Origin: Hymenobacter puniceus
Lineage (GTDB): Bacteria; Bacteroidota; Bacteroidia; Cytophagales; Hymenobacteraceae
NCBI RefSeq assembly: GCF_014333525.1
Contig: NZ_JACSCX010000001.1
Location: 372,001-436,000 of the forward strand
Direction of reading: 5' to 3'
Length of the DNA: 64,000 nucleotides
Position 1 is the stretch's first letter, and every line of letters starts with the position of its first letter. The notes beneath the pieces are model-generated. The model had not been told where the DNA came from. It ran no database searches and saw only the letters and a list, made by a program, of their open reading frames with translations. The translations under genes and the position numbers were made by a program. Positions 12,656-58,111 of the stretch are shown one piece after another.

Positions 12656-12680
12656 AGATTGATATCTTGTGTCAATCACA

Positions 12681-12699: not shown

Positions 12700-12728
12700 G
12701 TAAACTACCTATCTTTTAGCGCGGCCCT

Positions 12729-12778: not shown

Positions 12779-12823
12779 CTTTACTTCACGCTTCGCGCCC
12801 TAACGGCGTGGTGCCGGTCGCCC

Positions 12824-16507: not shown

Positions 16508-16513
16508 CAGTTT

Positions 16514-16586
16514 GTGAGACGCTTGTAAGCTCAAGCGTTCTGCCACCAATTCTCAGGCATAGCAGTTGGGCTTACAAGTGTCTCAC
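16514..16586. repeat. inverted repeat downstream of dnaE
   Basis: The 21-nt arms 16514-16534 and 16566-16586 pair at 19 positions around a 31-nt centre. It fills the gap between the dnaE stop and the next ATG at 16589. It lacks a T-run, so it could be a mobile palindrome or RNA-stability element rather than a classical terminator. Confidence 0.65.
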
Positions 16587-16588
16587 GC

Positions 16589-43078: not shown

Positions 43079-43964
43079 AGTATTCAAGCTGTGAAGAAGC
43101 ATGATGAACAAGCCCAACTGCCCGCCTGCGATGAGCACTGCACAACTGGCGGGCATAAAGCGCAAACCCGGAACAGCAGGGAGATAAGCCCGCAGCCCGC
43201 CAGACAGGACGTGGCAGAGAAGGCTGCGGGCTATTAGCCTAATACCAAAACGGTGGAGCGGGTGCTGTTTAGAGCGAAGCAAGCCGCCTGCTTAGGCCGG
43301 CAGCACTAACCTACTTGGGTGAAAAAGACAGCGGGGGCAGTACAGCAAACTGCCAGATTAGGAGCTAAAAAACAGAGCCTCACGCACAAGCCGCATGCTG
43401 CGGCCCACCTACCGGAATTCGCCTGGGATACTCTCAGTTGGCCCAACCTTCCTCAACAGACAACCAACTCTACAGGCTGATTGAAATTTATAATAAATAT
43501 TTAAATAATAAATATAATTTATTTTATAATGAGCGAATAGAGTATTTGCATCACCTATTTATGTTATGTTGTCATTATACCCAGCAGGCAATTTGCTGTC
43601 GATTGCACATCTGCAGGCTTTACTGTAGCGCGGCCTGCCACAGGTGCCAATTGACTATGCATCTGAATTTTTTCCATCAAGCACATCTCACCACAACCCT
43701 TCCGGTAAGGAAATGAGTGGGCTACACTCAGAGATACAGTCTTAAATAAAGTCAGGTGAAAACCGCCTAAAAAGGCATTTGAAGGCATTTTACACAGTCA
43801 ATCTCCGATCTGTAAAGTCCAACAACCATGAAGGATGGTTAGGCAATATCTGAGCGGTGCAGCACCTTTCCTACCTCATGCAGCCACTCGCCTACATCTT
43901 CGCTCCACCCGTGCCAGGTTTGGCTACCAAACGCACGGGTAACTCCCGGTATCAGGAGGAGGAA
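43079..43964. other. long non-coding stretch upstream of the biosynthetic cluster
   Basis: Almost 900 bp between two divergent genes with no supported gene. 43470-43560 is extremely AT-rich with small palindromes (for example AATAAATATAATTTATT), and there is a hairpin AACCAT-GAAGG-ATGGTT at about 43824-43840. The promoter of the seven-gene cluster should be here. The plus frame 43438-43716 is open but Cys/His-rich and unlike a protein. Confidence 0.5.
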
Positions 43965-45413
43965 ATGGTGGCTCAAAGCCGAACCACCAACTACGCGCAA
44001 CACATTCTGGCGCAGCTGCGGCAGCACCCAACCCAGGTGTGCCTGGTGTGGCCCGCACCCGATGGCACCACCCACCGCTACACCGGCAATGACCTGCTGC
44101 AGCAAATAGCCACCACACGGGAGCAACTGCTGGGGGCTGGCGTGCAGCCCGGCCACTTGGTGCTGCTGGCGGTGCCCGTCAGCGTGGAGCTGATTGCTGG
44201 GTTGCTGGCGGTGCAGGCCGTGGGCGCCGTGCCGGTTTTGCCGCCCGCGGGTGCGTCGGGTTGGCAACTGCTGCAGCTGGTGCGCCGCCTGGATATTTCG
44301 GTAGCATTGATTGGCACTGCGCCCCGCCCGCTGATGCGGCTGGCAGCCCGGCTAGGCGGCCTGCGGCTGGTTCTGGTGGCCTCCAAGCGGCTGGAAGCTA
44401 CAGATGATGCCTGGCAGGCCTGTCCGGTACCGGCGCAGCAGCCGGCGCTGGTGTCGCACAGCTCCGGCTCTACGGGGCGCGCCAAGGCCATCCGGCGCAG
44501 CCACGTGGTGCTGCAGGCGCAGCACGCGGCCATCAAGGCCGCCTTTCCGCCGTGGCTGGGGCAGCGCGACTTTCCGCTGTTTCCGAACGTGCTCCTGCAC
44601 AATCTGGCAGCGGGCGTGGTGAGTGTGCTGCCGGCCGTGCCCTGGCACGACCTCCGGCAGCTCAGCCCGGCCCGCATTGTAGCGCAGCTGCTCATGGAGC
44701 GAGTGCAGACCCTGACCGGCAACGTGGCTTACTTTGGCGCGCTGCTGGCGCACCTGCGGCAGCAGCCCGTGGCGTTGCCGGAAGTGGTGGCGGTGGGCGT
44801 GGGTGGCTCGCCGGTGCCGGAACCGTTGGCGCAACAGCTTCGGCAGACGTTTGAGCGGGCCACCATCCACATTATCTATGGTTCATCGGAAGCCGAGCCC
44901 ATTGCTGTGCGCCAGGTGACTCCCGATTCGCCTATCCCGCTGGCCGGCTACTGCGTGGGTCCTATTCAGGATGGGCTGGAATGGCGTTTTGAGCTGCTGG
45001 GTATGATTGAAACCGAAGCCACAAACCGCCAGCCGGTGGGCGAGCTGTGGGTGCGGGGCGCGCACGTGGCGGTAGCGCCCGGCGAGTGGCTACGCACCGG
45101 CGACTACGGCTACGTGGCCGACGGCCAGCTCTACCTCACCGGCCGCCAGGGCAACGAACAGTTGCACCACGGCGTGCAGCACTACCAGCTGGAGCACCTA
45201 CTCTACCACCTGCCCGGCGTGGAGCGCGCCGCCGCCCGCGCCGATGCCACCGGCTTCACGTTGTTCGTGCAGGGCACCGCTCCGCTCGAAAGTATAGCCG
45301 AGCTGCTGGCTGAAAAGCTGCCATTGATGCCTGTTTTGGGCGTATATCGGCGTAACACGCTACCGGTGGATGCGCGCCATCATTCCAAAATTCTCTACTC
45401 TCAGCTTCGCTAA
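43965..45413 (+). CDS. class I adenylate-forming enzyme (acyl/aryl-AMP ligase type)
   Basis: I choose the ATG at 43965 because a strong ribosome site AGGAGGAGGAA (43954-43964) directly precedes it, rare in this genome; earlier GTG/ATG starts lack one. The 482-residue enzyme has the ATP-binding loop SHSSGSTGRAKAIRRSH, the A5 motif IIYGSSEAEPIAVR, the A7 motif WLRTGDYGYV, the A8 motif LYLTGRQGNEQLHHG and a late Lys (HHSKILYSQL). All steps of carboxylate adenylation therefore look possible. No carrier protein is nearby, so the acyl-AMP may go to CoA or directly to an amine. First gene of the cluster; the next starts 2 nt after its stop. Confidence 0.85.
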   Translation: MVAQSRTTNYAQHILAQLRQHPTQVCLVWPAPDGTTHRYTGNDLLQQIATTREQLLGAGVQPGHLVLLAVPVSVELIAGLLAVQAVGAVPVLPPAGASGWQLLQLVRRLDISVALIGTAPRPLMRLAARLGGLRLVLVASKRLEATDDAWQACPVPAQQPALVSHSSGSTGRAKAIRRSHVVLQAQHAAIKAAFPPWLGQRDFPLFPNVLLHNLAAGVVSVLPAVPWHDLRQLSPARIVAQLLMERVQTLTGNVAYFGALLAHLRQQPVALPEVVAVGVGGSPVPEPLAQQLRQTFERATIHIIYGSSEAEPIAVRQVTPDSPIPLAGYCVGPIQDGLEWRFELLGMIETEATNRQPVGELWVRGAHVAVAPGEWLRTGDYGYVADGQLYLTGRQGNEQLHHGVQHYQLEHLLYHLPGVERAAARADATGFTLFVQGTAPLESIAELLAEKLPLMPVLGVYRRNTLPVDARHHSKILYSQLR

Positions 45414-45415
45414 TT

Positions 45416-46573
45416 ATGGAATCCGAGTTCTACAAGGTGGCGCTGGACCGCCTGCGCTATTCGCTGGTGTGGGAAGACAGCCGCACGCTCTATAGCGCCC
45501 TCTGCATCCAGCCCACAGACCACATGCTGGTGGTAGCTTCGGCGGGCTGCAACGTGCTCAATGCTCTACTCAAAAACCCGCGCCACGTCACGGCCATCGA
45601 CCTGAATCCGGTGCAGCTGCAGCTGCTGCGCCTGAAGCGGCACGTCATCCAGCACCACGAGCACGCCGTGCTGCGCGGCTTGTTAGGGCTGGCCGGACCG
45701 GCGGCGGTGGCAGCCGCCTGGCAAACAGTGGCGCCTACGCTGCCAGCCGCCGAGCAGGCGTATTGGGCCGCATTTTTCCAGAGCCACCCGGCCGGCATTC
45801 TTACGGCAGGGCAACTGGAAAGCTACGTTACCGGCTTTCTGCCGACGCTGGCCCCGGCCATGCAGACGCAGCTGCGGCAGCTGCTGGAGTTCGATACGGT
45901 GGCGGAGCAAGCAACTTATTTCGAAACGGAGCTGGCTGATTCCACCTTTCCGGCGCAGTTCGTGGCGTATTTCGATGAGGCCAACCTGAGCAAGGGCCGC
46001 GACCCGCGCCTGTTTCGCTACGCAGCCGAGTCGGGCGGAGAAGCCTTCTACCTGCGGCTACGCGACACGCTGCACACCGAGCTGATGCGCGACAATTTCT
46101 TTCTGCGGTTCTTCTTTTTCGGGCCCGAAAACCTGCCTTGCGCCATTCTGCCGCCCTGCTACCAGCGCCGCCACCATGCGCTGCTGCGCCAGCAGCTGCC
46201 CAAGCTCACGCTGGTAGAAGGCGAGGCCGTGGGCTACCTGCGCAGCGCGGCCGGCCAGGGTATCAGCAAAGCCAGCCTGTCCAATATCTTCGAGTATACC
46301 AGCCCGGCCGAGTTTCAACGTACGGCGCAGGCGCTGTTTGCCCGCAACCGGCCGCTGCGGGTGGTCTACTGGAATCTGCTGCTCGACCAAGGGGCCAACC
46401 AGGGTGCCGATGGCGCTGCCGACGCGGCGCCGCTACCCATTGCCACGGCGGTTTCCGAGCGGCTGTCGCAGCAGGAAGCCTGCTTCTACTTCCGCAACGT
46501 GCGCGTGCTCGACTCACGCCAGATCTGTGTTGCCACTTCTTCCACACCTGCTTTTCTCGCTCACTGTGCCTGA
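45416..46573 (+). CDS. BtaA-like (DUF3419) SAM 3-amino-3-carboxypropyl transferase
   Basis: 385 residues. The start (YKVALDRLRYSLVWEDSRTL) and the SAM-binding region (HMLVVASAGCNVLNALLKNP, HVTAIDLNPVQLQLLRLKRH) fit DUF3419. Later blocks RDPRLFRYAAESGGEAFYLR, RDNFFLRFFFFG, GISKASLSNIFEY and the end RVVYWNLLLDQ...FYFRNVRVL also fit. BtaA proteins move the aminocarboxypropyl group of SAM to diacylglycerol, making homoserine lipids. BtaB, which would methylate to the betaine lipid, is absent here. This enzyme may therefore build a different acp-containing product. It is coupled to both neighbours (2-nt gap, 8-nt overlap). Confidence 0.82.
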   Translation: MESEFYKVALDRLRYSLVWEDSRTLYSALCIQPTDHMLVVASAGCNVLNALLKNPRHVTAIDLNPVQLQLLRLKRHVIQHHEHAVLRGLLGLAGPAAVAAAWQTVAPTLPAAEQAYWAAFFQSHPAGILTAGQLESYVTGFLPTLAPAMQTQLRQLLEFDTVAEQATYFETELADSTFPAQFVAYFDEANLSKGRDPRLFRYAAESGGEAFYLRLRDTLHTELMRDNFFLRFFFFGPENLPCAILPPCYQRRHHALLRQQLPKLTLVEGEAVGYLRSAAGQGISKASLSNIFEYTSPAEFQRTAQALFARNRPLRVVYWNLLLDQGANQGADGAADAAPLPIATAVSERLSQQEACFYFRNVRVLDSRQICVATSSTPAFLAHCA

Positions 46574-47801
46574 TACCGCCATTCTCGACCTGACAAGCCC
46601 GGCGTTTCTGGAAGAAATACTGCGCGCCCGCACGCCCACGCAGCCCTGCAGAGTCCTAGCCGTGGAACCCTTGCCGCTCGACAACTCGGCCAGCATTCTG
46701 GTGACGCTAACGGCCGGCCAGAGCACCCGGCCCATCGGGCACTTCGGGCTGGCCATCACGCTGGAAGAAGCCGGCCAGCCAACCACGCACCACATGGTGC
46801 TCAAGGTGAAGCCTCACGGCGGCGAAATATCCGGTATGCTGGCCGGCTTGGCCCAGCTGTGTGGCGGTGAGTTGGCCGAAGTTTACCCCAATTTTGCCGG
46901 GCGCACCGGCTTTCAGCACACCCACCAGCGCGAGCTGGCTGTGTACGAACACGCCGCGCCTGGCCTGATGCCGCGCATCTGGGGCACGCACGCCGACGAG
47001 GAAACCGGCCTCTACTGTGTGCTGATGGAGTATCTGGAGGACGTGACGCTGCTTAACTCGGTGCAGACCCCGGCCGCCTGGACCGACCACCACATCCGCA
47101 CGGCACTGGAGCAAATAGCCGCCTGGCACGCCCGCCACCTGCTGCCGCCCGGCGTGCCCGCACCCACCTGGCCCGACTTGCCTACCGGCGCCTACATGCA
47201 GGAACTGGCCCCACTCTGGACGGCGCTGCTCCACAACGCCGCGCCGCGCTTCCCGGAGCTGTTCAGCCCGCAGCGTACGGCGCAACTGCACGCGGCCATC
47301 CAACAGATTCCGGCGCGCAAAGCCTGGCTAGATGCCCGGCCGCGCACGCTCATCCACAACGACCTGAACCCGCGCAACACCTGTTTCCGGGGCGCCGGCC
47401 CCACCCTGCAGCTTTGCGCCTACGACTGGGAGCTGGCCACCTACCACGTTCCGGTGTACGATGTGGTGGAGCTGCTGTGCTTTGTACTCGATGCCGACCG
47501 CTACCACCTGCGGCCCGCCTACCTGGAGCACTACCGCCAAGCTTTGCACGCGCATACCGGCCGCTACGCCGATGTGGCCGACTTTCGCCATGAAGCCTAT
47601 TATGCTGCCCTCGATTTCGGGCTGCACCGTCTGGGCATGTACCTGATGGCACATTCCGTGGGCCCCTACCCTTTCCTGCCCCGCGTGGTTGACAGCTTTT
47701 TCAACACGCTAACCCAAACGGCATCCACTGAGCACCCAGCCTTTAAATTACCGTTGCCTCAGTCCGACGCTGCAAGCGTACGACCGGTTTTCGCCCGCTG
47801 A
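46566..47801 (+). CDS. APH/choline kinase-like phosphotransferase
   Basis: The open frame begins far upstream inside the previous gene; I take GTG at 46566 (VPDTAILDLTSPAFLEEILR), which overlaps the BtaA-like stop by 8 nt. 411 residues. The kinase fold shows ILVTLTAGQS...FGLAITLEE, MVLKVKPHGGE (nucleotide Lys), HQRELAVYEHAAPGLMPRIW, VLMEYLEDVTLLNSV (hinge), then TLIHNDLNPRNTCF with H264, D266 and N271, and the metal Asp in CAYDWELATYHVPVYDVVEL. The Brenner motif is intact. Family members phosphorylate aminoglycosides, choline, homoserine or other alcohols. In this cluster a homoserine-like or lipid headgroup hydroxyl is plausible. Confidence 0.8.
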   Translation: MPDTAILDLTSPAFLEEILRARTPTQPCRVLAVEPLPLDNSASILVTLTAGQSTRPIGHFGLAITLEEAGQPTTHHMVLKVKPHGGEISGMLAGLAQLCGGELAEVYPNFAGRTGFQHTHQRELAVYEHAAPGLMPRIWGTHADEETGLYCVLMEYLEDVTLLNSVQTPAAWTDHHIRTALEQIAAWHARHLLPPGVPAPTWPDLPTGAYMQELAPLWTALLHNAAPRFPELFSPQRTAQLHAAIQQIPARKAWLDARPRTLIHNDLNPRNTCFRGAGPTLQLCAYDWELATYHVPVYDVVELLCFVLDADRYHLRPAYLEHYRQALHAHTGRYADVADFRHEAYYAALDFGLHRLGMYLMAHSVGPYPFLPRVVDSFFNTLTQTASTEHPAFKLPLPQSDAASVRPVFAR

Positions 47802-47844
47802 CTTTGTTGCGTCGTCGTTCACATAGCCTGTTCAGATGGTTCCA

Positions 47845-47883
47845 GGCGGCGCAGCCGCCAACCAGTCCGACGCCTGCGGCGTC
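47845..47883. repeat. two small GC hairpins
   Basis: GGCGGC-GCA-GCCGCC (47845-47859) and GACGCC-TGC-GGCGTC (47869-47883) lie side by side in the 129-bp gap between the kinase and UbiA genes. They may be a remnant of a palindromic repeat or slow transcription within the operon. Confidence 0.5.
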
Positions 47884-47930
47884 GCATCGGGATAGTGACC
47901 CACAATTACCATAGCACCATACCCCTCCGA

Positions 47931-48821
47931 ATGAAACTCCGCCACCTCGCCGCGTATCTGAATCAGCGGTTTCCGCCCGTTAATATGGGACTGTTTGCGG
48001 TGCTGTTTCTGACGGTGTGGTCGGTGGTGGGGCGGGGCGCAGGAAATACATTTGGGTGGCGCGAGGTGGGCGGAATGCTGGCTACTATCTCCTTTTTCTT
48101 CCGCCTGCGGGTGTTCGATGAAATCAAGGACTACGCCACCGACGCCGTGCACCATCCGCAGCGCGTGCTGCAGCAGGGCCTCGTGACGCTGGGGCAGCTG
48201 CAGCAACTGGCATGGCTGGGGGCCGTGGGCGAGCTGGTGTGGTCGGCGCAGATGGGGCGGGCGGCGCTTGGCGGCTGGACGCTGGCGCTGGTCTACAGCT
48301 TGCTGATGCGCTACGAGTTCGGAATAGGCGAGTTTCTGAAGCGGCGGCTGGTACTATATGCACTCAGCCACATGCTCATCATGCCGCTCGTCGTTTACTG
48401 GCTGTGGCAGGCATACGCGCTGTATCAGCCCGATGTGGCCACGCCGCTGCGGTTTTGGCTGCTGGCAGCCTTGAGTTTGCTGGGCGGCTTTGCGTTCGAG
48501 CTGGCCCGCAAAACCCACGCCCCCGCCGCCGAGCAGTTCGGCATCGACTCCTACTCCCGCACGCTGGGCTACCGCGGCGCTATTGCGGCGGTGCTGCTGG
48601 TGCTATTGGGCGGCATTGCGGTGCAGAGTCTATTGCTGCAACAGCTGCAGGCCGGCGCGTGGGCATTTGTGCTGTTGGCGGGGCTGTTTGTCCTTGCGCT
48701 GCTGGTGTACGGCCGGGCGGCGGCCCGACCTCAGGAAAAGCTGCTGCGCACCGCCGAGCTGCTGGTGTCTATGTTCATGCTGACCAGCTATCTGGCCATT
48801 ATCGGCCTGGTTCTGCTGTAG
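47931..48821 (+). CDS. UbiA-family membrane prenyltransferase-like protein
   Basis: I take the ATG at 47931 (MKLRHLAAYLNQRFPP); a GTG at 47895 is possible. 296 residues with about 8-9 membrane helices. The first Asp-rich motif is FDEIKDYATD (62-71), and the second appears as FELARKTHAPAAEQFGIDSY (about 188-207), both as in UbiA enzymes, which bind Mg-diphosphate of prenyl or other activated donors. The distance and sequence suggest the branch with DEIKD rather than classical NDxxDxxxD. It may attach a lipid tail or condense phospho-activated groups in the membrane. The stop codon lies inside the palindromic element 48818-48912. Confidence 0.8.
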   Translation: MKLRHLAAYLNQRFPPVNMGLFAVLFLTVWSVVGRGAGNTFGWREVGGMLATISFFFRLRVFDEIKDYATDAVHHPQRVLQQGLVTLGQLQQLAWLGAVGELVWSAQMGRAALGGWTLALVYSLLMRYEFGIGEFLKRRLVLYALSHMLIMPLVVYWLWQAYALYQPDVATPLRFWLLAALSLLGGFAFELARKTHAPAAEQFGIDSYSRTLGYRGAIAAVLLVLLGGIAVQSLLLQQLQAGAWAFVLLAGLFVLALLVYGRAAARPQEKLLRTAELLVSMFMLTSYLAIIGLVLL

Positions 48822-48912
48822 AGACGCAATACTTTGCGTCTCGTCGTCTGCGCCGCCAAGGTCAAGGATAAACAACATCAGAATGCGCCGAGACGCGAAT
48901 ACGCGTCTCTAC
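48818..48912. repeat. composite palindromic element (two hairpins) at the UbiA 3' end
   Basis: Outer arms GTAGAGACGC/GCGTCTCTAC bracket two perfect hairpins: GAGACGCAA-TACT-TTGCGTCTC (48821-48842) and GAGACGCG-AATA-CGCGTCTC (48890-48909). The UbiA stop codon is within it. It resembles REP/BIME-type interspersed palindromes. Confidence 0.75.
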
Positions 48913-48936
48913 CCTGTTCAATTCCACCCAAACCCC

Positions 48937-51477
48937 ATGGTTCTTCACGGTTCTCTGCTGCCCACTCAGTACACCATCGGCCACAAGGCGCGCGGGTTGT
49001 TCCGCCTGCAGGCGGCGGGCATGCGTGTGCCGGAGTTCTTGGTGCTGCCCGCCGAAACTTTTGATGCGCTGCTAGCCGCCCCGGATGCCATTCAGCAGCG
49101 GCAGCGGCTGCAGGAGTTTCAGCTGCCCGCCACCGATCAGCAAGCCATCCGGCAGGTGCTGGCGGGCTGGGGCTTTCCGGCGCAACCGGTGGTGGTGCGC
49201 TCCTCGGTGGCCGATGAGGACGGCGCGGGTGCTTCGTTTGCGGGGCTTATGGATTCGTTTCTGAATCTGACGTCGGAGGCGGCGGTGTGGGCGGCGGTGG
49301 GGCGGTGCGCGGCCAGCGCCTACTCTGAGCGGGCTCTGGCCTACCGTCAACAAAAGCAGCTACCGTTGGTGGCGCGGCCGGCCGTCATCATTCAGCGGCA
49401 GCTGGCCGCCGAAGTGAGCGGCGTGGTGTTTTCCACCTTCCCGGAGTACCCGCAGGAAATGGCCATTCACGCCGTTTGGGGCTTCGGAGAGGGGTTGGTG
49501 GGCGGCCAGCTGGAACCCGACGAGTTCTACCTCAACAAGCGTACCGGCGGCGCCTGCCATACCAAGCTGGCCACCAAGGACACGCAGTTTCAGTGTGCCA
49601 GCAGCGCCGATGGGCTGCAGCAAACCCCTGTGCCCACTGACCACCAGCACGCCGCCTGCCTCACAGAACCTCAGCTGGCGGAGCTGTTTGCGGCGGCCAC
49701 GCAACTGGAACAGCAATTCGGCCAGCCCCAGGACCTGGAGTTTGTGCTAGAAGCCGGCCAGCCGTGGCTGGTGCAGGCGCGGCCCATCACGCAGCCGATG
49801 CCGGAGGTGGTGGTCTACGATAACTCCAACATCCAGGAAAGCTACTGTGGGGTCACGACACCACTCACGTTCAGCTTTGCGCAACGTGCCTACGCCACGG
49901 TGTACCGCCAGACCATGCACGTGCTGGGTTTGCCGCCGGCGCGTATTCAGGCCCAAGAAAGCACCGTCACGCAGCTATTGGGGCTGGTGAAGGGGCGCAT
50001 CTATTACAACATCAACAACTGGTACCGCGGCTTGCAGCTGTTGCCTTCCTTCCGGCAAAACAAGGCCGATATGGAGCGCATGATGGGCGTGGAAGAGCCC
50101 GTGGATTTCGTAGTCAGCCAGCAGAAAACGCTGGGCGCCACGCTCCAACTGCTACCTGGTCTGGCCCTGAATCTGTTGCGGCTGCTGCGGGCCTTCGGGC
50201 AGCTGAAGAAGCGCGTTCCGGATTTTCACGCGCACTTCCGGGCGCAGTATCAGCGATTCTACGCCCTGCCGCTGGCCACGCTCAGCGGGGCCGAGCTGCG
50301 GCAGCAAAAAGATATCCTGGATGCGCAGCTGCTGCAAAACTGGACCACGCCCATCATCAACGACTTCTTCGTGATGACCACCAACGGCCGCGTGAATCGG
50401 GGTTTGCAGCGGGCCGGCATCACGCAGCCCGATGAGTTTCTGAGCCGGTATCTGTCCGGCGACCAGCAGGTGGCCAGCACCCAGCCCACCCGCCAGCTGC
50501 AGGCCCTGGCCCGCGCCGCGTGGCCCCAGGCCGCCCTGCGCGAGCTGGTGCTGGCCGCCCCGCCCGATCTACACGCCCAGGTGGCCCAACTGGCGCCGGA
50601 TTTTCACCGGGCCGTGGAAGAGTTCATCGGGCAGTACGGCGACCGGACGGTGGGCGAGCTGAAGCTGGAAACGGCCACCATGCGCGTGGAGCCCGCCGTG
50701 TTCTACCAGTACCTGCGCAACTTCCTGCTGGCGCCTCCCGCCCCGGAAACTGAGGCTGGTAGCGCCCTGCAGCAGCAGGCCCGGCAGGAACTAGCCAATA
50801 GGCTGACGGGCCGCAGCCGCTGGTTTCGGTGGCGGCTGCAGCGCAACCTCAACCAACTGCAGCTGGCCATCCGGCAGCGCGAAGCGCTACGGCTGGAACG
50901 CACGCGGCTGTTTGGCATGTACCGGGCGCTCTACCGGGCCATGGGCGCGCAACTCACGCAACGTGGCCAGCTTGCCGCTACCGAAGACGTGTTCTGGCTG
51001 ACGGAGCCGGAACTGCTGGCCGCCCTGGCCGACGGCACCGCGCCACTGCTGCCACTGGTAGCCAAGCGCCGCCGCGAGTTCCGGCAGTACGCTCAGGAAG
51101 ACGTGCCGGCCCGCGTGACGATGCCCGCCCGCCCCACCGCTGCCCCGCCCCTGCCCGAAGGCGCCCTAGCTGGCACCGGCTGCTACCCTGGCGTGGCTGA
51201 AGGCGCGGTGGTCGTCATCACCGACCCCGGCGGCGACCTGAACGTGACCGGCAAAATCGTGTGTGCCCTGCGCACCGACCCCGGCTGGGCCGCCTTGTTT
51301 CCAATGTGCCGCGGCGTCATCATCGAAAAAGGCTCGTCGTTGTCGCACTCCGTGATTCTGCTGCGCGAGCTGGGCATCCCCACCATCATCAACGTGCCGC
51401 ATATCACGCAACGCCTCCGCACCGGCCAGCACATTCGCCTCAACGGCGAAACCGGCCAGATTAAGATGGTGGAGTAA
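48937..51477 (+). CDS. PEP-synthase/rifampin phosphotransferase-like dikinase
   Basis: I start at the ATG at 48937 (MVLHGSLLPTQYTIGHKARG), 846 residues. The N-terminal ATP-grasp part (about 15-310) shows PVVVRSSVADEDGAGASFAG, VIIQRQLAAEVSGVVFSTFP, AIHAVWGFGEGLVGG and EFVLEAGQPWLVQARPI. A large central region (about 320-730) has no partner I can name. The C-terminal phosphohistidine swivel (about 750-846) carries GVIIEKGSSLSHSVILLREL with the catalytic H804. The order ATP-grasp, middle, His-domain and the length are those of rifampin phosphotransferases and PEP synthases, but the PEP-binding C-terminal barrel is missing. It should move phosphate from ATP through His to an acceptor bound by the middle domain. 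Confidence 0.82.
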   Translation: MVLHGSLLPTQYTIGHKARGLFRLQAAGMRVPEFLVLPAETFDALLAAPDAIQQRQRLQEFQLPATDQQAIRQVLAGWGFPAQPVVVRSSVADEDGAGASFAGLMDSFLNLTSEAAVWAAVGRCAASAYSERALAYRQQKQLPLVARPAVIIQRQLAAEVSGVVFSTFPEYPQEMAIHAVWGFGEGLVGGQLEPDEFYLNKRTGGACHTKLATKDTQFQCASSADGLQQTPVPTDHQHAACLTEPQLAELFAAATQLEQQFGQPQDLEFVLEAGQPWLVQARPITQPMPEVVVYDNSNIQESYCGVTTPLTFSFAQRAYATVYRQTMHVLGLPPARIQAQESTVTQLLGLVKGRIYYNINNWYRGLQLLPSFRQNKADMERMMGVEEPVDFVVSQQKTLGATLQLLPGLALNLLRLLRAFGQLKKRVPDFHAHFRAQYQRFYALPLATLSGAELRQQKDILDAQLLQNWTTPIINDFFVMTTNGRVNRGLQRAGITQPDEFLSRYLSGDQQVASTQPTRQLQALARAAWPQAALRELVLAAPPDLHAQVAQLAPDFHRAVEEFIGQYGDRTVGELKLETATMRVEPAVFYQYLRNFLLAPPAPETEAGSALQQQARQELANRLTGRSRWFRWRLQRNLNQLQLAIRQREALRLERTRLFGMYRALYRAMGAQLTQRGQLAATEDVFWLTEPELLAALADGTAPLLPLVAKRRREFRQYAQEDVPARVTMPARPTAAPPLPEGALAGTGCYPGVAEGAVVVITDPGGDLNVTGKIVCALRTDPGWAALFPMCRGVIIEKGSSLSHSVILLRELGIPTIINVPHITQRLRTGQHIRLNGETGQIKMVE

Positions 51478-51505
51478 CGCCTACTTTACGCTCTATTCTC
51501 CTCCT

Positions 51506-52573
51506 ATGATCCCCATCCACCAGCTGCCGTTTCAGGACCATTTGCCGGATTCGTTCTTCCAGATTCCCGTCCCGATTTACGCAGCATTGCCTTATCAGCC
51601 GCAGGAGGATGCAGCGGCCGTGCGGCAGCTGTTCCGGCAGGAACTGGAGCGCAACGACATCGTGCTGCTCACCAACCACACGCAGCTGCGGCTGGTGGGC
51701 ATCTTCCCGAAGGACAGCCGCACCGCGTATTTCGGGTATTGGGAAACCGTGGACGATGTGGCACTGAACGAGGCAGCATTTGCGCAGCTGCAGCTGGCCG
51801 CCCGACAGCGCGGCTACACGCACCTGCAGGGGCCACTCAACTTCAACACCTACCACCCCTACCGCCTGCGCCTGGGTGCGGCGCCTTCCTGGCAGCACTT
51901 CGACCGGGAGCCGGTCAACCCGGCCTACTATCCGGGCCTGCTGGAGCAGCTGGGTTTTGCGCCCGTCCTCACCTTTGAAAGCCGCCTGATTGCGCCCGCC
52001 ACGGTGCCGGCCGTGTACCAGGACAAGGCCAGCCTGCTGGCCGCCGTCCGGAGTCTGCCCTACGAGTTTATTCCGCTTACACCAGTCAGTTGGCCGGAGC
52101 ATGAGGAAGCCATTTTTGAGCTGGTGCACCAGATTTTCAGTGCTAACCCGGCCTACCAGCCCATTCCGAAAAGCCAGTTCCGGCAGCTCTACAACGCCGA
52201 ATACGCCGCCAAGCTGTGCCCGCACACCTCGGTATTGCTGCGCGAAAAAGCGCACGGCCGCCTGGTGGCGCTCAGCCTTTGCCACCCTAACTACGCGCCT
52301 CTGCACCTTGGCACCGAGCCGCCCAATTTCCAGCGCGACTATCCACGCCTGCCGCGCCGAACAATGCTGGCCAAAACTATCGGCGTACACCCCGATTTTC
52401 GCAATCAGCAGCTGATGAGCTACCTGGGCGCCTACGGCATGCTGACGTTCCGCGACCTGTACGACGAGGCCATTTTCTGCCTGATGCGCTCCGACAACTT
52501 CTCTCTGCATTTCACCGACGGCCTGCCCGCCGAAACCGCCCACTACGCGCTGTATGAGCTGGCACTGAACTGA
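51506..52573 (+). CDS. GNAT-like acyltransferase of the cluster
   Basis: 355 residues. The pattern suggests a double GNAT-like fold: RLVGIFPKDSRTAYFGYWET, YTHLQGPLNFNTYHPYRLRL, YYPGLLEQLGFAPVLTFESR in the first half, and TSVLLREKAHGRLVALSLC, LAKTIGVHPDFRNQQLMSYL, CLMRSDNFSL in the second. The TIGVHPDFRNQQL segment fits the acetyl-CoA/acyl-CoA loop of GNAT enzymes. It may N-acylate the amine of an acp-containing intermediate, using the acyl group activated by the first gene. It starts 28 bp after the dikinase stop. Confidence 0.65.
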   Translation: MIPIHQLPFQDHLPDSFFQIPVPIYAALPYQPQEDAAAVRQLFRQELERNDIVLLTNHTQLRLVGIFPKDSRTAYFGYWETVDDVALNEAAFAQLQLAARQRGYTHLQGPLNFNTYHPYRLRLGAAPSWQHFDREPVNPAYYPGLLEQLGFAPVLTFESRLIAPATVPAVYQDKASLLAAVRSLPYEFIPLTPVSWPEHEEAIFELVHQIFSANPAYQPIPKSQFRQLYNAEYAAKLCPHTSVLLREKAHGRLVALSLCHPNYAPLHLGTEPPNFQRDYPRLPRRTMLAKTIGVHPDFRNQQLMSYLGAYGMLTFRDLYDEAIFCLMRSDNFSLHFTDGLPAETAHYALYELALN

Positions 52574-52592
52574 GCTTGTTTGTAACGCGGCG

Positions 52593-52675
52593 CTGTCATT
52601 CCGACACAGGAAGAATCTCGCCAGGCTACTAGAATTACTATTCAGGCAAGATTCCTCCTGCATCGGAATAACAGG
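52593..52675. repeat. palindromic interspersed element between acyltransferase and exporter genes
   Basis: The left side (CTGTCATTCCGACACAGGAA and on) pairs imperfectly with the right side (...TTCCTCCTGCATCGGAATAA) over about 30 nt. I recognise the TGTCATTCCGAC...GAATCTC word as a common intergenic element of Hymenobacter-type genomes (recollection, not searched). It lies 19 bp after a stop codon. Confidence 0.7.
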
Positions 52676-52713
52676 CACGGCTCGGAACGATAATTAACCC
52701 CTCTATCCAAATC

Positions 52714-54942
52714 ATGCTCCACCTCTACCGAATCCGCTACCTGCTCCTGCTGCTGATTGTGGCGGCTTGCGTGGCGTTGTGGCCCGGCGTGCAGGCTGCT
52801 ATGGTGGTCGATAATAGCTTGGCTACGTGGTTTCTGCAGGACGACCCGGCATTGCGCGAATACCGCGCCTTTCAGCAACGCTTCGGCAACGACGAAGTGG
52901 TGATTCTGGCCGTGCATGATACGCAGCCGGTGCTTACGCCCGCGTATCTGGCGGCCTTTCGCAACCTCACCCGCGAGCTGGGAGCCCTGCCGGCCGTAGC
53001 GGGCGTGAACGGCCCCGGCAACACCCAGCTGCCCGGCCGGGGCTTGGCCGGCACCTCACAGCCACTACTGGCGGCTGGCACCACAGCGGCTGAAGTGCGG
53101 CGGGCGCTGCAGCCGCTGCCCACGTTGCGCCAAAGCCTGTTTTCCAACGACTTCACCACGGCGCGCTTCATCATCCAACTGCACCAGCGGCCCGACTTCG
53201 ACGACCGGCGCGGCGAGATTCTGGCGCAGGTGCAGCAAGTGGTATACCGGTATTTCCGGCCGGAGCAGGCGCATCTGGGCGGCGTAGGCATCGTGTATGC
53301 GGGTCTGAATGCGTTGTCGCAGCACGATTTTGGGCTGTTCTTGGGGCTGGGCTACCTGCTGATGTTTGGGGTACTGCTGCTTGTCTACCGCAACCTGCTG
53401 CTGCTGGTGTACACGCTGGGCATTGTGGGGCTGGCCACTTACGTTACGTTTGGGGTGTATGGGGCGCTGGGCTACCGCGTAAACCTGATGACCGTGCTGC
53501 TGCCCATCGTGCTGATTCTGCTGGGCATCATGGATGCCATGCATGTCATTAATGAGCGCAACCGCCTGCGCACACCCACCAGCCCCGCCCGCCACGACGC
53601 GCTGCAGGCTTTGCGCAACGTGTTTGCGCCTTGCCTGTTCACCATGCTCACCACTGTGGCGGGTTTTCTGGCGCTGCTGTCGTGCCCGATGGCTATTCTG
53701 CGCAATTTTGGGGTGTTTGCGGCGCTGGGCATTGCGCTGTGCTTGCTGTTCACATTTGTGCTGGGCGTACTGCTGCTGCCACTGGCCAAAGCCCCGGCCC
53801 GCACTGCCGCCGCCACACACTCGGCCGCCAACCGCACGGTGGCTTTCTACCATTATCTGCTGGCCCGGCCGCGCTTTTTCGCCGCACTTTCCGTGCTACT
53901 CACGCTGGCACTGGCCGCCGGCCTGTCCCGCCTCCGTTCCGACACCTACACGCTTGGCTACCTGCCCGCCACCCACCGCGTCGTCGCGGACCATGAGGCC
54001 ATTGAAGCCAGCTGGGGGCCCTACATGCCGCTGGAGCTGCTGGTGGAGCCCCGCCCCGGCCACGCCCTGTCGGACGTAGCCGTGGTGCAGGCCACCTTCG
54101 CCTTCGCCGACTCGGTGCGCCAGCTTTCCGGCGTGGGCCAGGTAACCGGGTTTCACTCGCTCTATCAGGCCGGATTGGAAGCGCAGGTTGGTGGCAAAGC
54201 CGCCCGCCTGCGCGCCAGCCAGGGCGCTTTGCACGCGGTAGAGCGGCAACTGAAACAAAACTATCCGAAGCTGCTGGCCCAGTTTGTGCACGAGCCTTCC
54301 GGCACCGGGCGCGTCACGGTTTCGGGCCGGATGCTGTCGGCGCGGCAGCTCACGGCCAAGGTGGATACGCTGCTAACAGTGGCGCGCGCCACGCTGGGGC
54401 CGGTGGCTACGGTGCGGGCTGCCGGCTACCAGCCGCTCTACGCCAACATTGTGGCCTACGTCACGGAGTCCCAAACCAACAGCTTGCTGCTGTCGTTCGG
54501 GCTGGTGTTCGGGTTGACGTGGGCGTTCATTCGCAGCTTCCGGCTGGCGCTGCTCACGGTGGTGCCCAACCTGTTTCCGGTGCTGGTGCTGCTGGGCGCC
54601 ATGGGCTGGCTGGGCATTCCGCTCGACACGGCCACGGCCAGCATTGCTTCCATCGTGCTCAGCTTGTGCGTCGATGACACCATCCACTTCGTGTACAGCT
54701 ACCAGCAGCACCGCCGCCACGGCTTCACGCCCGCCCAGGCCCGCCTCACCACCATTGCGCACGTCGGTCCCACCATCGTGCTAACCAGCGTAGTGCTGTT
54801 TCTGGGCTACGCCGTCATGACGCTGGGCTCCCTGAAAACGGTGCAGTTGTTTGGCTCACTCACGGCCATTGCTGTGGCCGGCGCCTTCTACGGAGAGCTG
54901 GTTATATTTCCATTGGTGCTGAAAAGATTCGACCCGGAGTAA
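52714..54942 (+). CDS. MMPL/RND superfamily exporter
   Basis: 742 residues. It has one N-terminal helix (YLLLLLIVAACVALWPGVQA), a periplasmic loop (about 30-200), a bundle of helices (about 205-365) with GIMDAMHVINERNR, a second helix and loop (about 390-590), and a last bundle (about 590-740) with LFPVLVLLGAMGWLGIPLDT and LSLCVDDTIHFVYSYQQH, where the Asp pair is typical of MMPL proton relays. Relatives export lipids, hopanoids or glycolipids. As the last gene of the cluster it probably exports the product. The stop codon lies inside the hairpin 54939-55050. Confidence 0.85.
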   Translation: MLHLYRIRYLLLLLIVAACVALWPGVQAAMVVDNSLATWFLQDDPALREYRAFQQRFGNDEVVILAVHDTQPVLTPAYLAAFRNLTRELGALPAVAGVNGPGNTQLPGRGLAGTSQPLLAAGTTAAEVRRALQPLPTLRQSLFSNDFTTARFIIQLHQRPDFDDRRGEILAQVQQVVYRYFRPEQAHLGGVGIVYAGLNALSQHDFGLFLGLGYLLMFGVLLLVYRNLLLLVYTLGIVGLATYVTFGVYGALGYRVNLMTVLLPIVLILLGIMDAMHVINERNRLRTPTSPARHDALQALRNVFAPCLFTMLTTVAGFLALLSCPMAILRNFGVFAALGIALCLLFTFVLGVLLLPLAKAPARTAAATHSAANRTVAFYHYLLARPRFFAALSVLLTLALAAGLSRLRSDTYTLGYLPATHRVVADHEAIEASWGPYMPLELLVEPRPGHALSDVAVVQATFAFADSVRQLSGVGQVTGFHSLYQAGLEAQVGGKAARLRASQGALHAVERQLKQNYPKLLAQFVHEPSGTGRVTVSGRMLSARQLTAKVDTLLTVARATLGPVATVRAAGYQPLYANIVAYVTESQTNSLLLSFGLVFGLTWAFIRSFRLALLTVVPNLFPVLVLLGAMGWLGIPLDTATASIASIVLSLCVDDTIHFVYSYQQHRRHGFTPAQARLTTIAHVGPTIVLTSVVLFLGYAVMTLGSLKTVQLFGSLTAIAVAGAFYGELVIFPLVLKRFDPE

Positions 54943-55050
54943 CGTGGAGTGGCACCCCGAAAACAAATAACGCGAGTACCCGGCACCGCGCCATTTGCGC
55001 CAATGCCAGATACTCGCGTTGCCCGTTTGCGGAGTGCCACTCCACGTTAC
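54939..55050. terminator. nested long hairpin between convergent exporter and receptor genes
   Basis: Outer 17-nt arms (54939-54955, 55034-55050) are perfect and extend with one mismatch; inner 17-nt arms (54969-54985, 55004-55020) pair at 15 positions. The exporter stop codon is in the outer arm. It may terminate both genes and has the look of an inserted palindrome. Confidence 0.75.
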
Positions 55051-55056
55051 TTTTCC

Positions 55057-57903
55057 CTACTTACCCAGCGTCACGTTCACGCGGCCGAAATAGAAGGCGC
55101 CGTTGAAGCCGAATTGGTTGGGATTATAAAGTGTGCGGCCGCGGTTGGTGTTGTCGAGGTTGGAAGCGTAGCTGGTACCATCCACGGCAAAGTTGCTGGC
55201 GTTGTTGCGCGCATTCACACGGTACTTGTCGGGGTAGACGTTGAACAGATTGTTGGCGCCCACAGCCAGCTGCAGCTGCGGCAGCAACTGGTACGTCACG
55301 GTAGCGTCCGTCACCCACTTGGCCGAAAACGTCTGGTCGATGCTGGAAAACAAGAATGGGTTGGGGTTGGCCTGGGTAGGCACGGGGTCCACGCGGGCGT
55401 CGCGGAACACTACCTCACCGAAGCGCACGGTGCGCAGCTCCAGGCCCAGCTTGCTGAGCGTGTAGTTGGCGGCCAGCACAATCTTGCTGCGCGGCTGGGC
55501 GTCTTCGAGGCGGCCGGTTTGCTGGCGGTCAAAGAAGATGGTGCGCAGTGTGGGGTCTTCGAGCTGGCTGGGTACGTTCACGCTTTGCACCTTGGTTTCC
55601 GTGAAGTTGGCAGCGGCCGTCAAACTCAGCGTGCTGGTTTCCGAGAGCGTCAGCCGCTCGTTGGCCACAATATCAAGGCCGCGGGTGCGGGTATCGATGG
55701 CGTTGGCGAAAAACTGCACAATACCCACGTCCGTGGCTCCGGCTGCATTCAGGTAGCCGGCCACCAGGGCATTGGCACGGCTGAACTGCGAGCTGAGCGC
55801 AATCCGGTCGTTGATGTCAATCTGGTAGGCATCCACGGTGAGCGTGATGGTGCGCAGCAGCCGCGCCGTGAGGCCCAGGCTGTAGTTGCGGGATGTTTCC
55901 TGCTTCAAAGAGCCCACGCCAAACTGCCGCACGATGGGGTTTTCGTTGTTGGCCGTCAGCACGGTTTGGGGGGCGCCCTGCACAAACTGGGTGCTTTGGT
56001 TGGTGAAGTAGCGCTGCTGCAGCGAAGGCGCCCGGAAGCCGTTGCCGAGGTTGCCGCGCAAGGCCACATCCTCCAGAATATTCAGCCGTACGCCTACCCG
56101 GCCGCTCACGTTGGAGCCGAAGTCGGAGTAGTCCTCGGCGCGGCCGGCCAAACTCACCAGCAGGCGGCGGCTGATGTCGCTTTCCACCTCAGCGTAGCCG
56201 GCCACGTTGGTGCGCGAGCGGGTCAGCTCGTTGCTGGGCTGGAATCCCGGAAACACCTGGGCGCCGGCCGCAGCGGGCCCAAACGTGGGCGTACCGTTGG
56301 CGGCGGTGCCCGTGCGCACCGTGCGGCCCTGGCCGTTGATGCCGTTGGCGTAGGAGGCCGGGTCACCGGCCTCAATCTGGTACTGGTCGTCGCGGTACTC
56401 GCCACCGAAGGCCACGCTCAGCGTTTCCAGGAAGCCCAGCTCGCGGTATTGCCGCGAAAAGCCTAGGTTGGTGGTGTTCTGCCGGAAGTAGATGCGGCCG
56501 GCGTAGAACTCGCGCGGGCTGGTGCCGGTCGGCAACGAGGCATTCACGGAATTGGTGACGTCGAAATCCATGCCGTTGGAGCCCCACACGTTGCTCAAAT
56601 CCCAGCTGAAGCCCAGCACCTTGCCCCGCACGCCCGCCAGCACCGACCGGTCAATCAGCGTGGGCTCGATAAGGGGCAGAAAACCGTTGGGGTAGTACGT
56701 GGAGTCGGTTTGGGCGCTGAAGCGGCCGGGCAGGCGGGCAAAGCCGGCGGCCTGGCCCTCGCGCCGCATCAGGCCGGCCGTGAGGTAGGCCTCCAAGCCC
56801 AGCGACTCGCTCAGCGTGTAGCCCGCGTTCAGAAAGCCGCCGTAGTTGACCTGGTCGGAGTTGCCAAAGCGCAGGTTGCGCCGGTCGTAGCCGCGGCTGG
56901 CGGCCAGCGCGTCGTCGCGGCGCTTGAGGTCCTGGCGCAGGGCGGGCGTGTTGGCGTTGGCGGGGTAGTTGCCGTTGTTGTCGCCGAGGTAGATGAGCGG
57001 GGCCGTGTCCACGCCGCTGCGGTTGGTGAAGCCCCGGTTGCTGTACTGCCCGCTCACGTCCACAAAGCCCCGGCCACCCAGCCCCAGCCCCACGTTGGCA
57101 TCGGCCTGAAACAGCTCACCGTCGCTTTCCACGGTCTGGCCAACGGTACTGCTGGCTGTTACGCCCACGCTGTCGTCTTTGAGCTGCACGTTAATAACGC
57201 CGGCAATGGCGTCGGAGCCGTAGAGGGCCGCCGCGCCGTCGCGCAGCACTTCAATCCGCTTGATGCTGGCCACCGGAATCGTGTTCAGGTCGGTACCTAC
57301 CGAGCCGCGGCCCACGGTGCCGTTCACGTTCACCAGGGCCTGGTTGTGGCGGCGCTTGCCGTTCACGAGTACAAGCACCTGGTCGGGGCCGAGGCCGCGC
57401 AAGGAGGCCGGGTCGAGGTGGTCGGTGCCATCGGCAATGGTTTGGCGGCTGCTCTGGAACGACGGCGCCGTAAACGTAAGCACCTGCCCCACATCGGTCT
57501 GGGCAAAGGCCCGGATTTCGCGCGACGAAATAACGTCCACCGGAGCGGTAGTCTGGATATTGGAGCGGCCCTCCGTGGCTCGCGAGCCGGTCACAACTAC
57601 CTCGTTCAAATCAGTAGCGGCGTCCACGAGGCGTACATCCAGCGTGGTGCGGCCATTCACGGGCACTTGCTGGGTGGCCGCGCCCACCGCCGAAAACGTG
57701 AGTGTGGCCGTGCCGGGCACCTCCAGGCTGAATCGGCCGTTGGCATCGGTGCTGGTGCCGTTGCTGGTGCCGCGCTCCAGCACGGTCACGCCGGGCTGGG
57801 CGCCGCTGCTGCCCGTCACGCGGCCCGTCACCGTGATTTTCTGGGCCTGGGCCTGCGCTACTACGGCTACCATGGCCAGGGGTAAGAGAAGAAGTTTTTT
57901 CAT
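55057..57903 (-). CDS. TonB-dependent receptor (copy 1)
   Basis: 948 residues. Signal peptide (MKKLLLLPLAMVAVVAQAQA), a CarboxypepD-regulatory-like domain (ITVTGRVTGSSGAQPGVTVL...GRFSLEVPGTATLTFSAVG, 24-105), a plug domain (LNEVVVTGSRATEGRSNIQT; LRGLGPDQVLVLVNGKRRHN; IEVLRDGAAALYGSDAIAGV; about 115-245) and a barrel ending in YNPNQFGFNGAFYFGRVNVT. It imports a ligand with TonB-ExbBD energy; the substrate is unknown. No SusD-like gene is near. It is a paralogue of copy 2 at 58112, tandem and same strand. Confidence 0.92.
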   Translation of the reverse strand: MKKLLLLPLAMVAVVAQAQAQKITVTGRVTGSSGAQPGVTVLERGTSNGTSTDANGRFSLEVPGTATLTFSAVGAATQQVPVNGRTTLDVRLVDAATDLNEVVVTGSRATEGRSNIQTTAPVDVISSREIRAFAQTDVGQVLTFTAPSFQSSRQTIADGTDHLDPASLRGLGPDQVLVLVNGKRRHNQALVNVNGTVGRGSVGTDLNTIPVASIKRIEVLRDGAAALYGSDAIAGVINVQLKDDSVGVTASSTVGQTVESDGELFQADANVGLGLGGRGFVDVSGQYSNRGFTNRSGVDTAPLIYLGDNNGNYPANANTPALRQDLKRRDDALAASRGYDRRNLRFGNSDQVNYGGFLNAGYTLSESLGLEAYLTAGLMRREGQAAGFARLPGRFSAQTDSTYYPNGFLPLIEPTLIDRSVLAGVRGKVLGFSWDLSNVWGSNGMDFDVTNSVNASLPTGTSPREFYAGRIYFRQNTTNLGFSRQYRELGFLETLSVAFGGEYRDDQYQIEAGDPASYANGINGQGRTVRTGTAANGTPTFGPAAAGAQVFPGFQPSNELTRSRTNVAGYAEVESDISRRLLVSLAGRAEDYSDFGSNVSGRVGVRLNILEDVALRGNLGNGFRAPSLQQRYFTNQSTQFVQGAPQTVLTANNENPIVRQFGVGSLKQETSRNYSLGLTARLLRTITLTVDAYQIDINDRIALSSQFSRANALVAGYLNAAGATDVGIVQFFANAIDTRTRGLDIVANERLTLSETSTLSLTAAANFTETKVQSVNVPSQLEDPTLRTIFFDRQQTGRLEDAQPRSKIVLAANYTLSKLGLELRTVRFGEVVFRDARVDPVPTQANPNPFLFSSIDQTFSAKWVTDATVTYQLLPQLQLAVGANNLFNVYPDKYRVNARNNASNFAVDGTSYASNLDNTNRGRTLYNPNQFGFNGAFYFGRVNVTLGK

Positions 57904-58062
57904 ACGCCAGAGAAAAATAGAAAGTGAAATACTGCGGCAGTCAAGGTCAGCACCTGTGCCCGACCTGAATAGAAATCAATATAGCCATAGAAAAAGCACA
58001 TTTCCTGCATAAGCCTTGCGCCACGCCGCCATAGGTTGCGCCTGAACGGCTACCCCACAACA

Positions 58063-58097
58063 AAAAAGCCGCCCAGCGCAATGCCAGGCGGCTTTTT
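58063..58097. terminator. intrinsic terminator between the two receptor genes
   Basis: Perfect arms AAAAAGCCGCC/GGCGGCTTTTT with a 13-nt loop, 15 bp after the minus-strand stop at 58112. The receptors are therefore separate units. Confidence 0.88.
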
Positions 58098-58111
58098 CAG
58101 AACGATGAAAC

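Follow-up and report, generated by a model that had tools for sequence, protein, structure and literature searches.

A conserved seven-gene cluster of Hymenobacter puniceus with a divergent UbiA-fold enzyme: a candidate pathway for an undescribed amino lipid

Introduction

What might an adenylate-forming enzyme, a DUF3419 protein, an APH-like kinase, a UbiA-fold membrane enzyme, a dikinase, a GNAT-like transferase and an MMPL transporter make together, if they work together at all? The question is raised by seven consecutive genes at 43965-54942 of a 64,000-nucleotide stretch of Hymenobacter puniceus DNA, which we call the window (contig NZ_JACSCX010000001.1, positions 372,001 to 436,000; G000:C8:372001-436000, where G000 is the window's own genome, 4.86 Mb in 16 contigs). 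An initial annotation, made from the letters alone, had taken these genes for a cluster that makes a metabolite or lipid, probably exported and carrying the 3-amino-3-carboxypropyl (acp) group of S-adenosylmethionine (SAM). Here we report that the seven genes are a real unit, associated beyond chance, and that their UbiA-fold enzymes make up a subfamily with a changed second motif. Our preferred reading, to which we give a probability of about 0.45, is that the cluster encodes a pathway devoted to making an acylated membrane lipid that bears acp, an amino lipid not described so far.

Results

The seven genes are inherited together

To follow the genes among relatives, we used a near set of 34 loci around close relatives of the DUF3419 protein (L069-L071 and L072-L102), of which 31 come from the window's family, one from a Pedobacter and two from metagenome-assembled genomes (MAGs). 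The single contig scan picked up close relatives only, and L064-L068 were left out because they lie on the same contigs as L076, L095, L096, L100 and L089. The close relatives known by name belong to Hymenobacter, Solirubrum and Pontibacter, the Pedobacter and the two MAGs standing further off; the hosts of the cluster are soil and water bacteria. As judged by tblastn with the seven window proteins, all six enzymes are found in 31 of the 34 loci, and 27 loci match all seven genes, MMPL included. Given that 31 of 34 related loci hold the complete enzyme set, we conclude that the cluster is a real unit. Of the remaining three, L070 and L093 are truncated at the end of a contig, and only L088 (genome G027) is truly partial.

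The same pattern is seen across 120 genomes of the genus. UbiA is present in 22 of them; GNAT is strong in the same 22, with two further matches of only about 20 bits, and the dikinase is again strong in these 22, the matches in 19 other genomes all being below 100 bits. DUF3419 is found in the 22 cluster-bearing genomes and in G027. Inheritance of the cluster within the genus is therefore close to all-or-none. The initial annotation had named one outcome that would overturn it, namely that homologues of these genes are rarely found together in relatives; the opposite is the case, and its proposal of a functional cluster built from the named families around a DUF3419 (BtaA-superfamily) enzyme is supported.

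The arrangement of the genes is less constant than their presence. Gene order and strand vary among relatives: AMP-ligase, DUF3419 and APH form one group and UbiA, dikinase and GNAT another. In 26 of 34 loci these two groups point in opposite directions, in seven they share a direction, and L088 is without the second group. The array of the window recurs in G012, G075 and G041. Thus the earlier statement that all genes lie on one strand is correct for the window and does not hold in general. One could take this variation, along with gaps of 129, 115 and 140 nt in the window, as a sign that unrelated genes have become neighbours by chance. However, near all-or-none inheritance in 120 genomes and the persistence of six enzymes in 31 of 34 loci despite rearrangement refute a chance neighbourhood for all practical purposes.

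In L088, only DUF3419 and APH of the seven genes are seen in the fetched stretch (10581-12868), and UbiA, GNAT and dikinase were not found in the genome G027. Because its DUF3419 falls among those of full-cluster Hymenobacter in the tree described below, the partial set looks like a secondary loss. That G027 keeps DUF3419 and APH without UbiA, GNAT and dikinase suggests that these two act as a sub-step.

Two further observations concern individual loci. In L073 (G012), at about 8137-10150, the match to the APH gene is split in two, with about 0.8 kb between the pieces, which looks like the result of an insertion. Genes of haem synthesis stand near the cluster in L077 (delta-aminolevulinate dehydratase, by Pfam) and L069 (hemA/hemC-like, by eye), which is probably a coincidence.

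Genes and spacing in the window

All seven open reading frames lie on the + strand at the positions first assigned to them, with start codons as chosen there, and the gaps and families named at the outset are borne out by Pfam, NCBIfam and structure models. The first gene (43965..45413) encodes an adenylate-forming AMP-ligase of PRK09274/OleC-like type (Pfam AMP-binding, 101.5 bits). It is followed after 2 nt by the DUF3419 gene (45416..46573; Pfam DUF3419, 145.2 bits against a cut-off of 28.2), whose product is a presumed SAM acp transferase of a cluster-specific clade, and this in turn is overlapped by 8 nt (a spacing of -8) by the GTG-started gene of an APH/EcKL-like kinase (46566..47801; Pfam APH, 54.3 bits). 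After 129 nt comes the UbiA-fold membrane enzyme (47931..48821; structure model and profile alignment), and after another 115 nt the Rph/PigC-like dikinase (48937..51477; Pfam PPDK_N, 191.4 bits, and PEP-utilizers, 62.4 bits). A tandem-GNAT acyl- or aminoacyltransferase (51506..52573; structure model) starts 28 nt further on, and the row ends, after 140 nt, with an accessory MMPL/HAE3 RND-type transporter (52714..54942; Pfam MMPL, 91.1 bits). For the UbiA-like and GNAT-like proteins, Pfam reports no domain up to E 0.1, and family support for the DUF3419 and APH-like proteins comes from Pfam, with none from NCBIfam. As had been noted before, Pfam and NCBIfam identify no carrier protein, nonribosomal peptide synthetase (NRPS) or polyketide synthase (PKS) among the seven.

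A sigma-70-type scan of the gaps of 129, 115 and 140 nt gave no promoter candidate, other promoter types being outside the scan, and the whole array may be co-transcribed across these gaps. Rfam at gathering thresholds finds no RNA element in 43000-55300. At the UbiA-dikinase gap lies a palindrome-like repeat (48821-48842), which occurs at one site in the window (both strands match) and in none of 100 shuffles; a second, similar GAGACGC/GCGTCTC stretch is found further into the gap. The repeat looks like an element of the repetitive extragenic palindromic (REP) type. Downstream of the cluster, at 55057-60937 on the - strand, are two large tandem proteins that are mutually alike and, by eye, resemble TonB-dependent receptors.

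The UbiA-fold enzyme has an altered second motif

The structure model of the UbiA-like protein (predicted local distance difference test, pLDDT, 87.2) has the fold of the UbiA superfamily. In a Foldseek search, the archaeal digeranylgeranylglyceryl phosphate (DGGGP) synthase ranks first (7bpu, best E 5.2e-7), and comparison with 6m31 gives a VIA Z of 19.9 with 278 residues aligned at a root-mean-square deviation of 4.0. In the profile search, significant solved relatives were limited to DGGGP synthase and chlorophyll a synthase. Two prenyltransferase models of NCBIfam match below their cut-offs (PRK05951, 94.6 of 239 bits; PRK13592, 61.5 of 443 bits).

The motifs were compared in a census of 41 rows, the near part of which covers 29 of the 32 near loci with UbiA. 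The first acidic motif, NDxxDxxxD in the superfamily, is present as DExxDxxxD (residues 63-71) in 41/41 rows and aligns with NDIFDIEID of DGGGP synthase. The second Asp-rich motif of the superfamily is not found. In its place R193 and K194 stand in every row. K194 falls on the first D of DGGGP synthase's KDFEDMEGD and of chlorophyll synthase's NDFKSVEGD, so that RK replaces KD or ND. E201, also present in 41/41 rows, aligns with the last D of motif 2 in chlorophyll synthase, whereas against DGGGP synthase it is shifted by one residue; it may stand for this last Asp, with part of the second motif surviving. Judged from these alignments, the replacement of KD/ND by RK is the signature of a UbiA subfamily, and since the leading Asp of the second motif is invariantly Lys, a changed donor or a changed binding of diphosphate is suggested.

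The same relatives bring up the possibility that the cluster is a pathway for archaeal-type isoprenoid ether lipids in which the UbiA-fold enzyme is the DGGGP synthase. This synthase is indeed the best relative in fold and sequence, and PcrB of the type of geranylgeranylglyceryl phosphate synthase (GGGPS) was found in 39 of 41 genomes searched, 38 times over the cut-off. PcrB, however, does not track the cluster: it is present in all nine cluster-negative genus genomes searched and was not found in two distant cluster-bearing genomes, G408 and G479. An archaeal-type lipid made via GGGPS is rejected on this ground, and with Lys in the place of the leading Asp of the DGGGP synthase second motif, we regard the ether-lipid explanation as improbable.

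The DUF3419 proteins of the cluster branch apart from BtaA

DUF3419 is the family of the betaine-lipid enzyme BtaA, and the Pfam score of the window protein places it within this domain family. Its gene is the sole match in the window's genome at E up to 0.001. D62, N64 and Q67 are kept in 31 near and 10 distant rows; for this protein and the AMP-ligase, the residue counts take in rows of at least 75% (near) or 60% (distant) of the query length.

A midpoint-rooted tree was made from 42 selected rows: 18 near (the window and 17 of the 34 loci), 11 distant and 13 others, one of which rows (L133) has a very long branch. A 96/95 branch (length 0.13) sets off the near and distant cluster proteins as one group. 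On the other side is the DUF3419 protein of Rhizobium leguminosarum, which has an adjacent class I methyltransferase (the BtaA/BtaB arrangement) and is the single such BtaA in the tree. The description of the window protein as BtaA-like is hence correct at the level of the family and goes no further, given that the cluster proteins do not group with the BtaA that has a BtaB-like partner; for the same reason, we infer acp transfer at the family level only.

A BtaA-type route to the betaine lipid diacylglyceryl-trimethylhomoserine (DGTS), as under phosphate limitation, would account for the presence of a DUF3419 enzyme. Nevertheless, none of the seven genes encodes a BtaB-type N-methyltransferase, fused or adjacent, while the R. 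leguminosarum control has one adjacent, and its DUF3419 branches away from those of the cluster. Five further enzymes would also be left without a role. With the separation in the tree and the missing methyltransferase, the BtaA/BtaB route is not supported and we hold it to be very unlikely.

Dikinase, kinase, ligase and GNAT-like enzyme

In the dikinase, Pfam places PPDK_N at 27-287 and PEP-utilizers at 772-840 of 846 residues, with no further domain. The layout is that of an ATP-grasp domain, a middle domain and a mobile His domain with His804, which is present in 43/43 rows (one of them a stray enzyme I-like protein of the phosphotransferase system, PTS, from L105). The best NCBIfam models, those of the PRK06241.2 group, are named phosphoenolpyruvate (PEP) synthase (PRK06241.2-2, 700.3 of 883 bits, below the cut-off), followed by RedH (250.6 of 1350 bits), Rph (240.2 of 999), another PRK06241 model and PigC (238.5 of 1300); RedH and PigC match over nearly the whole length, also below their cut-offs. 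PEP synthase has a C-terminal PEP/pyruvate-binding domain after the His domain. No such domain is detected by Pfam and the score on TIGR01418 is 174 of 739.75 bits, so that the identity as PEP synthase is rejected despite the name of the best models. The protein instead has an architecture like that of Rph and PigC, with ATP-grasp first, a terminal His domain and the His kept, at scores short of the cut-offs of Rph, PigC and RedH. The profile aligns with 5hv2, which we take to be rifampin phosphotransferase (its record calls it PEP synthase), at both ends and not in the middle, as would be expected if the acceptor differs from that of rifampin phosphotransferase.

The other enzymes carry motifs of catalytic type. 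In the APH-like kinase the HNDxNPRN loop is intact, each of H, N, D, N, P, R and N being found in 33/33 rows. The AMP-ligase (190.4 bits on PRK09274, cut-off 478) has the SGSTG loop, TGD and a C-terminal Lys475, and its G168, S169, G171, T378, G379, D380 and K475 are kept in at least 97% of 29 near and at least 90% of 7 distant rows. The model of the GNAT-like protein (pLDDT 78.1) is a tandem GNAT by fold, with 2wpx, itself a tandem GNAT, as the best of 167 Foldseek matches with E up to 0.001 (E 8.3e-11).

Distant versions share an older core

Beyond the genus, we searched a thin, evenly drawn sample of 395 genomes of the phylum. The UbiA-subfamily profile matches 10 of them strongly (at least 337 bits; the next best match has 39.5 bits), and in all ten a DUF3419 gene lies no more than about 6 kb away on that contig. 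DUF3419 itself is present in 45 of the 395 genomes. Among ten distant loci that were picked for holding the core, out of 29 distant DUF3419 loci examined, UbiA, dikinase and DUF3419 are found in 10/10, a GNAT-like protein in 8/10 and AMP-ligase in 7/10; in one of them, L103, the stretch stops near the contig end, close to the cluster. Searching plasmids with the window's UbiA gave no match, and with the UbiA of L110 one record. A further version was found on a plasmid of Roseinatronobacter (Alphaproteobacteria), the plasmid match with the best E-value; it encodes UbiA, a PEP/pyruvate-binding protein, DUF3419, two hypothetical proteins, one of them GNAT-like by profile (34.7 bits), and AMP-ligase. 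The sequences thus point to an older core of UbiA, dikinase and DUF3419, usually with GNAT and AMP-ligase, that is found again in distant Bacteroidota and on a plasmid from an alphaproteobacterium.

The distant versions have partners of lipid type. Pfam identifies 3-hydroxy-3-methylglutaryl coenzyme A (HMG-CoA) reductase in L103, L106, L108, L110, L111 and L112; in L113 and L114, a protein matching it in size and position is present. On the plasmid, an HMG-CoA reductase is divided by the origin of the record into two halves (171.7 and 173.5 bits), just upstream of UbiA. L105 (G342) and L107 (G557) have no match to this enzyme genome-wide. Both have a phosphatidylserine decarboxylase, L105 has a DagK-type kinase as well, and in L107 a protein of fatty-acyl-reductase type (15657-16934; Male sterility, NAD_binding_4, 170.4 bits) adjoins the dikinase. 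Reductases of both types are in principle able to turn a thioester into an alcohol, and the position of the fatty-acyl-reductase-type gene beside the dikinase of L107 suggests that a thioester-to-alcohol reductase is a need common to many distant versions. Membrane proteins resembling SEC59/VTE5-like kinases are recognised in distant loci by eye only, with no Pfam match to such a family. L107 also has a split MMPL-like gene.

Is HMG-CoA reductase then part of the pathway in the window? The searches covered selections of 45 genomes for this enzyme, 41 for PcrB and 17 for DXR of the methylerythritol phosphate (MEP) route. HMG-CoA reductase was found in 16 of 16 searched genus genomes with a full or partial cluster, in 7 of 9 without, and in none of three cluster-bearing Pontibacter genomes. 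A role in the window's pathway is not supported by these counts. The window's genome has both HMG-CoA reductase and DXR (G000:C8:1105566-1106678 and C8:276420-276803). In G200, G219, G408 and G479, the HMG-CoA reductase of the cluster is the sole one found and DXR is present, and for this reason the enzyme looks dedicated to the cluster pathway there. G267 and G360 have a second HMG-CoA reductase and no DXR match. A supposed loss of the HMG-binding Arg in the cluster enzymes was dropped, as alignment against the human numbering shows Arg at that place.

DUF3419 was also met in other surroundings. In L109 (G334), at 11773-14570, it is in one frame with a phospholipid-methyltransferase (PEMT) domain, and a DagK-type kinase and a GNAT-like protein adjoin; this fusion is possibly a one-protein betaine-lipid synthase in Bacteroidota. 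In L104 and L115, DUF3419 is near a GNAT-looking protein (by eye) and a protein of 367-416 aa (with a weak Shikimate_DH match in L104). L104 has a fatty acid desaturase too, and the two loci represent another lipid-type context of DUF3419.

The transporter is the loosest member

The MMPL protein (162.3 bits on TIGR00921, cut-off 351.9) is matched in 28 of the 34 near loci, in two of which (L082, L087) it is a short fragment. No match was seen in the fetched stretches of L071, L079, L083 and L086, to which the search was limited and whose contigs continue. It is the loosest member of the cluster, apparently a frequent and dispensable transporter beside a pathway of six enzymes. The earlier proposal that the product is exported is, in view of the four stretches and two fragments, the weakest part of the interpretation; in those genomes the exporter could lie elsewhere.

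An alternative to a membrane lipid is a diffusible product of specialised metabolism, such as a prenylated or pigment-like compound. The dikinase would then be a ligase of PigC/RedH type, to whose models it aligns nearly full length below the cut-offs, UbiA would add a prenyl tail, DUF3419 would add acp as in small acp natural products, and MMPL would export the product, in line with its matches in 28 of 34 loci and the MMPL-like protein of distant L107. The patchy distribution (22 of 120 genus genomes) is likewise that of accessory metabolites. Nevertheless, the partners in distant versions are of lipid type, the significant solved relatives of UbiA by sequence are lipid-type and chlorophyll-type synthases, the exporter was not found in the fetched stretches of some loci, and no carrier protein, NRPS or PKS is among the seven genes. 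On balance we find a diffusible metabolite rather unlikely.

Discussion

A membrane lipid is favoured because the distant versions carry lipid-type partners and because the relatives of the UbiA-fold enzyme are DGGGP and chlorophyll synthases. The substrates, the order of steps, the product and its export that we propose for this lipid are predictions. The AMP-ligase would activate a fatty or similar acid. Within the membrane, the UbiA-fold enzyme would join a polar acceptor and a hydrophobic chain much as DGGGP or chlorophyll synthase does, the acceptor being perhaps an alcohol or carboxylate rather than a phenol. Intermediates would be phosphorylated or activated by the Rph/PigC-like dikinase and the APH-like kinase, and DUF3419 would put the acp group of SAM on a hydroxyl (as an ether, like in betaine lipids) or on an amine. 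Finally, the tandem GNAT would acylate or aminoacylate the resulting amine.

Several points weigh against a lipid made in this way. The fold comparison does not decide the acceptor type of the UbiA-fold enzyme, since the UbiA of Aeropyrum (Z 18.3) follows closely behind DGGGP synthase (Z 19.9), and with its altered second motif the protein may be no ordinary prenyltransferase. DUF3419 is related to BtaA at the family level only, so that acp transfer is itself a putative step. PEP synthase is the name of the dikinase's best models, and PigC and RedH, which are ligases in the synthesis of small pigments, are among those that follow. Lastly, the product may not be the same in near and distant versions, since a thioester reductase is missing from the window's set and HMG-CoA reductase is absent altogether from three cluster-bearing Pontibacter genomes.

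A bolder form of the amino-lipid reading, which we put forward tentatively, is that the enzyme set makes a new class of bacterial lipids with an acylated acp head across Bacteroidota and Pseudomonadota. UbiA, without the classical second metal motif, would form the central bond through a non-diphosphate donor or through Arg/Lys-based binding of diphosphate, with an activated partner supplied by the Rph-like dikinase. The distant version would start from an alcohol made by a dedicated thioester reductase, which is HMG-CoA-reductase-like in most, with mevalonate or an analogue serving as a building block rather than for isoprenoids, and fatty-acyl-reductase-like in L107.

If the reading is correct, Bacteroidota would have a new class of lipid or metabolite and UbiA a subfamily with a new active-site signature. 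"Unidentified aminolipid" is a term used in species descriptions of Bacteroidota, and the gene set offers a concrete gene-level hypothesis for such a lipid in Hymenobacteraceae. It also illustrates that co-inheritance by itself can reveal a pathway that has no NRPS, PKS or carrier protein.

Comparison with known systems

As far as the retrieved portions of the full-text literature go, no described pathway with this gene set was recognised, in agreement with the initial annotation; the parts are of known families, and no description was seen there of how they are combined, of the UbiA signature or of the distribution. In the same portions, the nearest published UbiA operon is that of Ubi-297 (PMC9235831), which differs from the cluster. 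The ebo operon, with Ubi-297 (EboC), has in common with the cluster a UbiA-like protein in a conserved operon of Bacteroidota (PMC9235831, PMC5133447). The EboC model gives the UbiA of L110 a score of only 31.7 of 250 bits, with no match listed for the window's UbiA, and identity with the ebo operon is rejected because this score is too low for a UbiA of EboC type. The other ebo proteins belong to other families than those of the cluster.

The first gene of the cluster is of the same family as the OleC/PRK09274 adenylate-forming enzymes; however, the two OleC models, with cut-offs of 900 and 850 bits, give the window's ligase only 54.7 and 37.0 bits, and no match to OleA, OleB or OleD is listed for the seven genes. 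Betaine-lipid synthesis by BtaA/BtaB shares with the cluster the DUF3419 family and the presumed acp transfer from SAM, whereas the cluster DUF3419s are a separate group, accompanied by five other enzymes and by no methyltransferase among the seven. Rph and PigC/RedH resemble the cluster dikinase in having the ATP-grasp domain first and the mobile His domain last, with the His kept; they differ in that the middle (acceptor) domain is left unaligned with Rph in the profile search and in that the Rph, PigC and RedH scores are far below the cut-offs. Finally, archaeal DGGGP synthase and chlorophyll synthase are like the cluster's UbiA in fold, first acidic motif and membrane setting, while in the cluster enzyme the N and D that open the first motif have become D and E, and the leading Asp of the second has become a Lys preceded by Arg.

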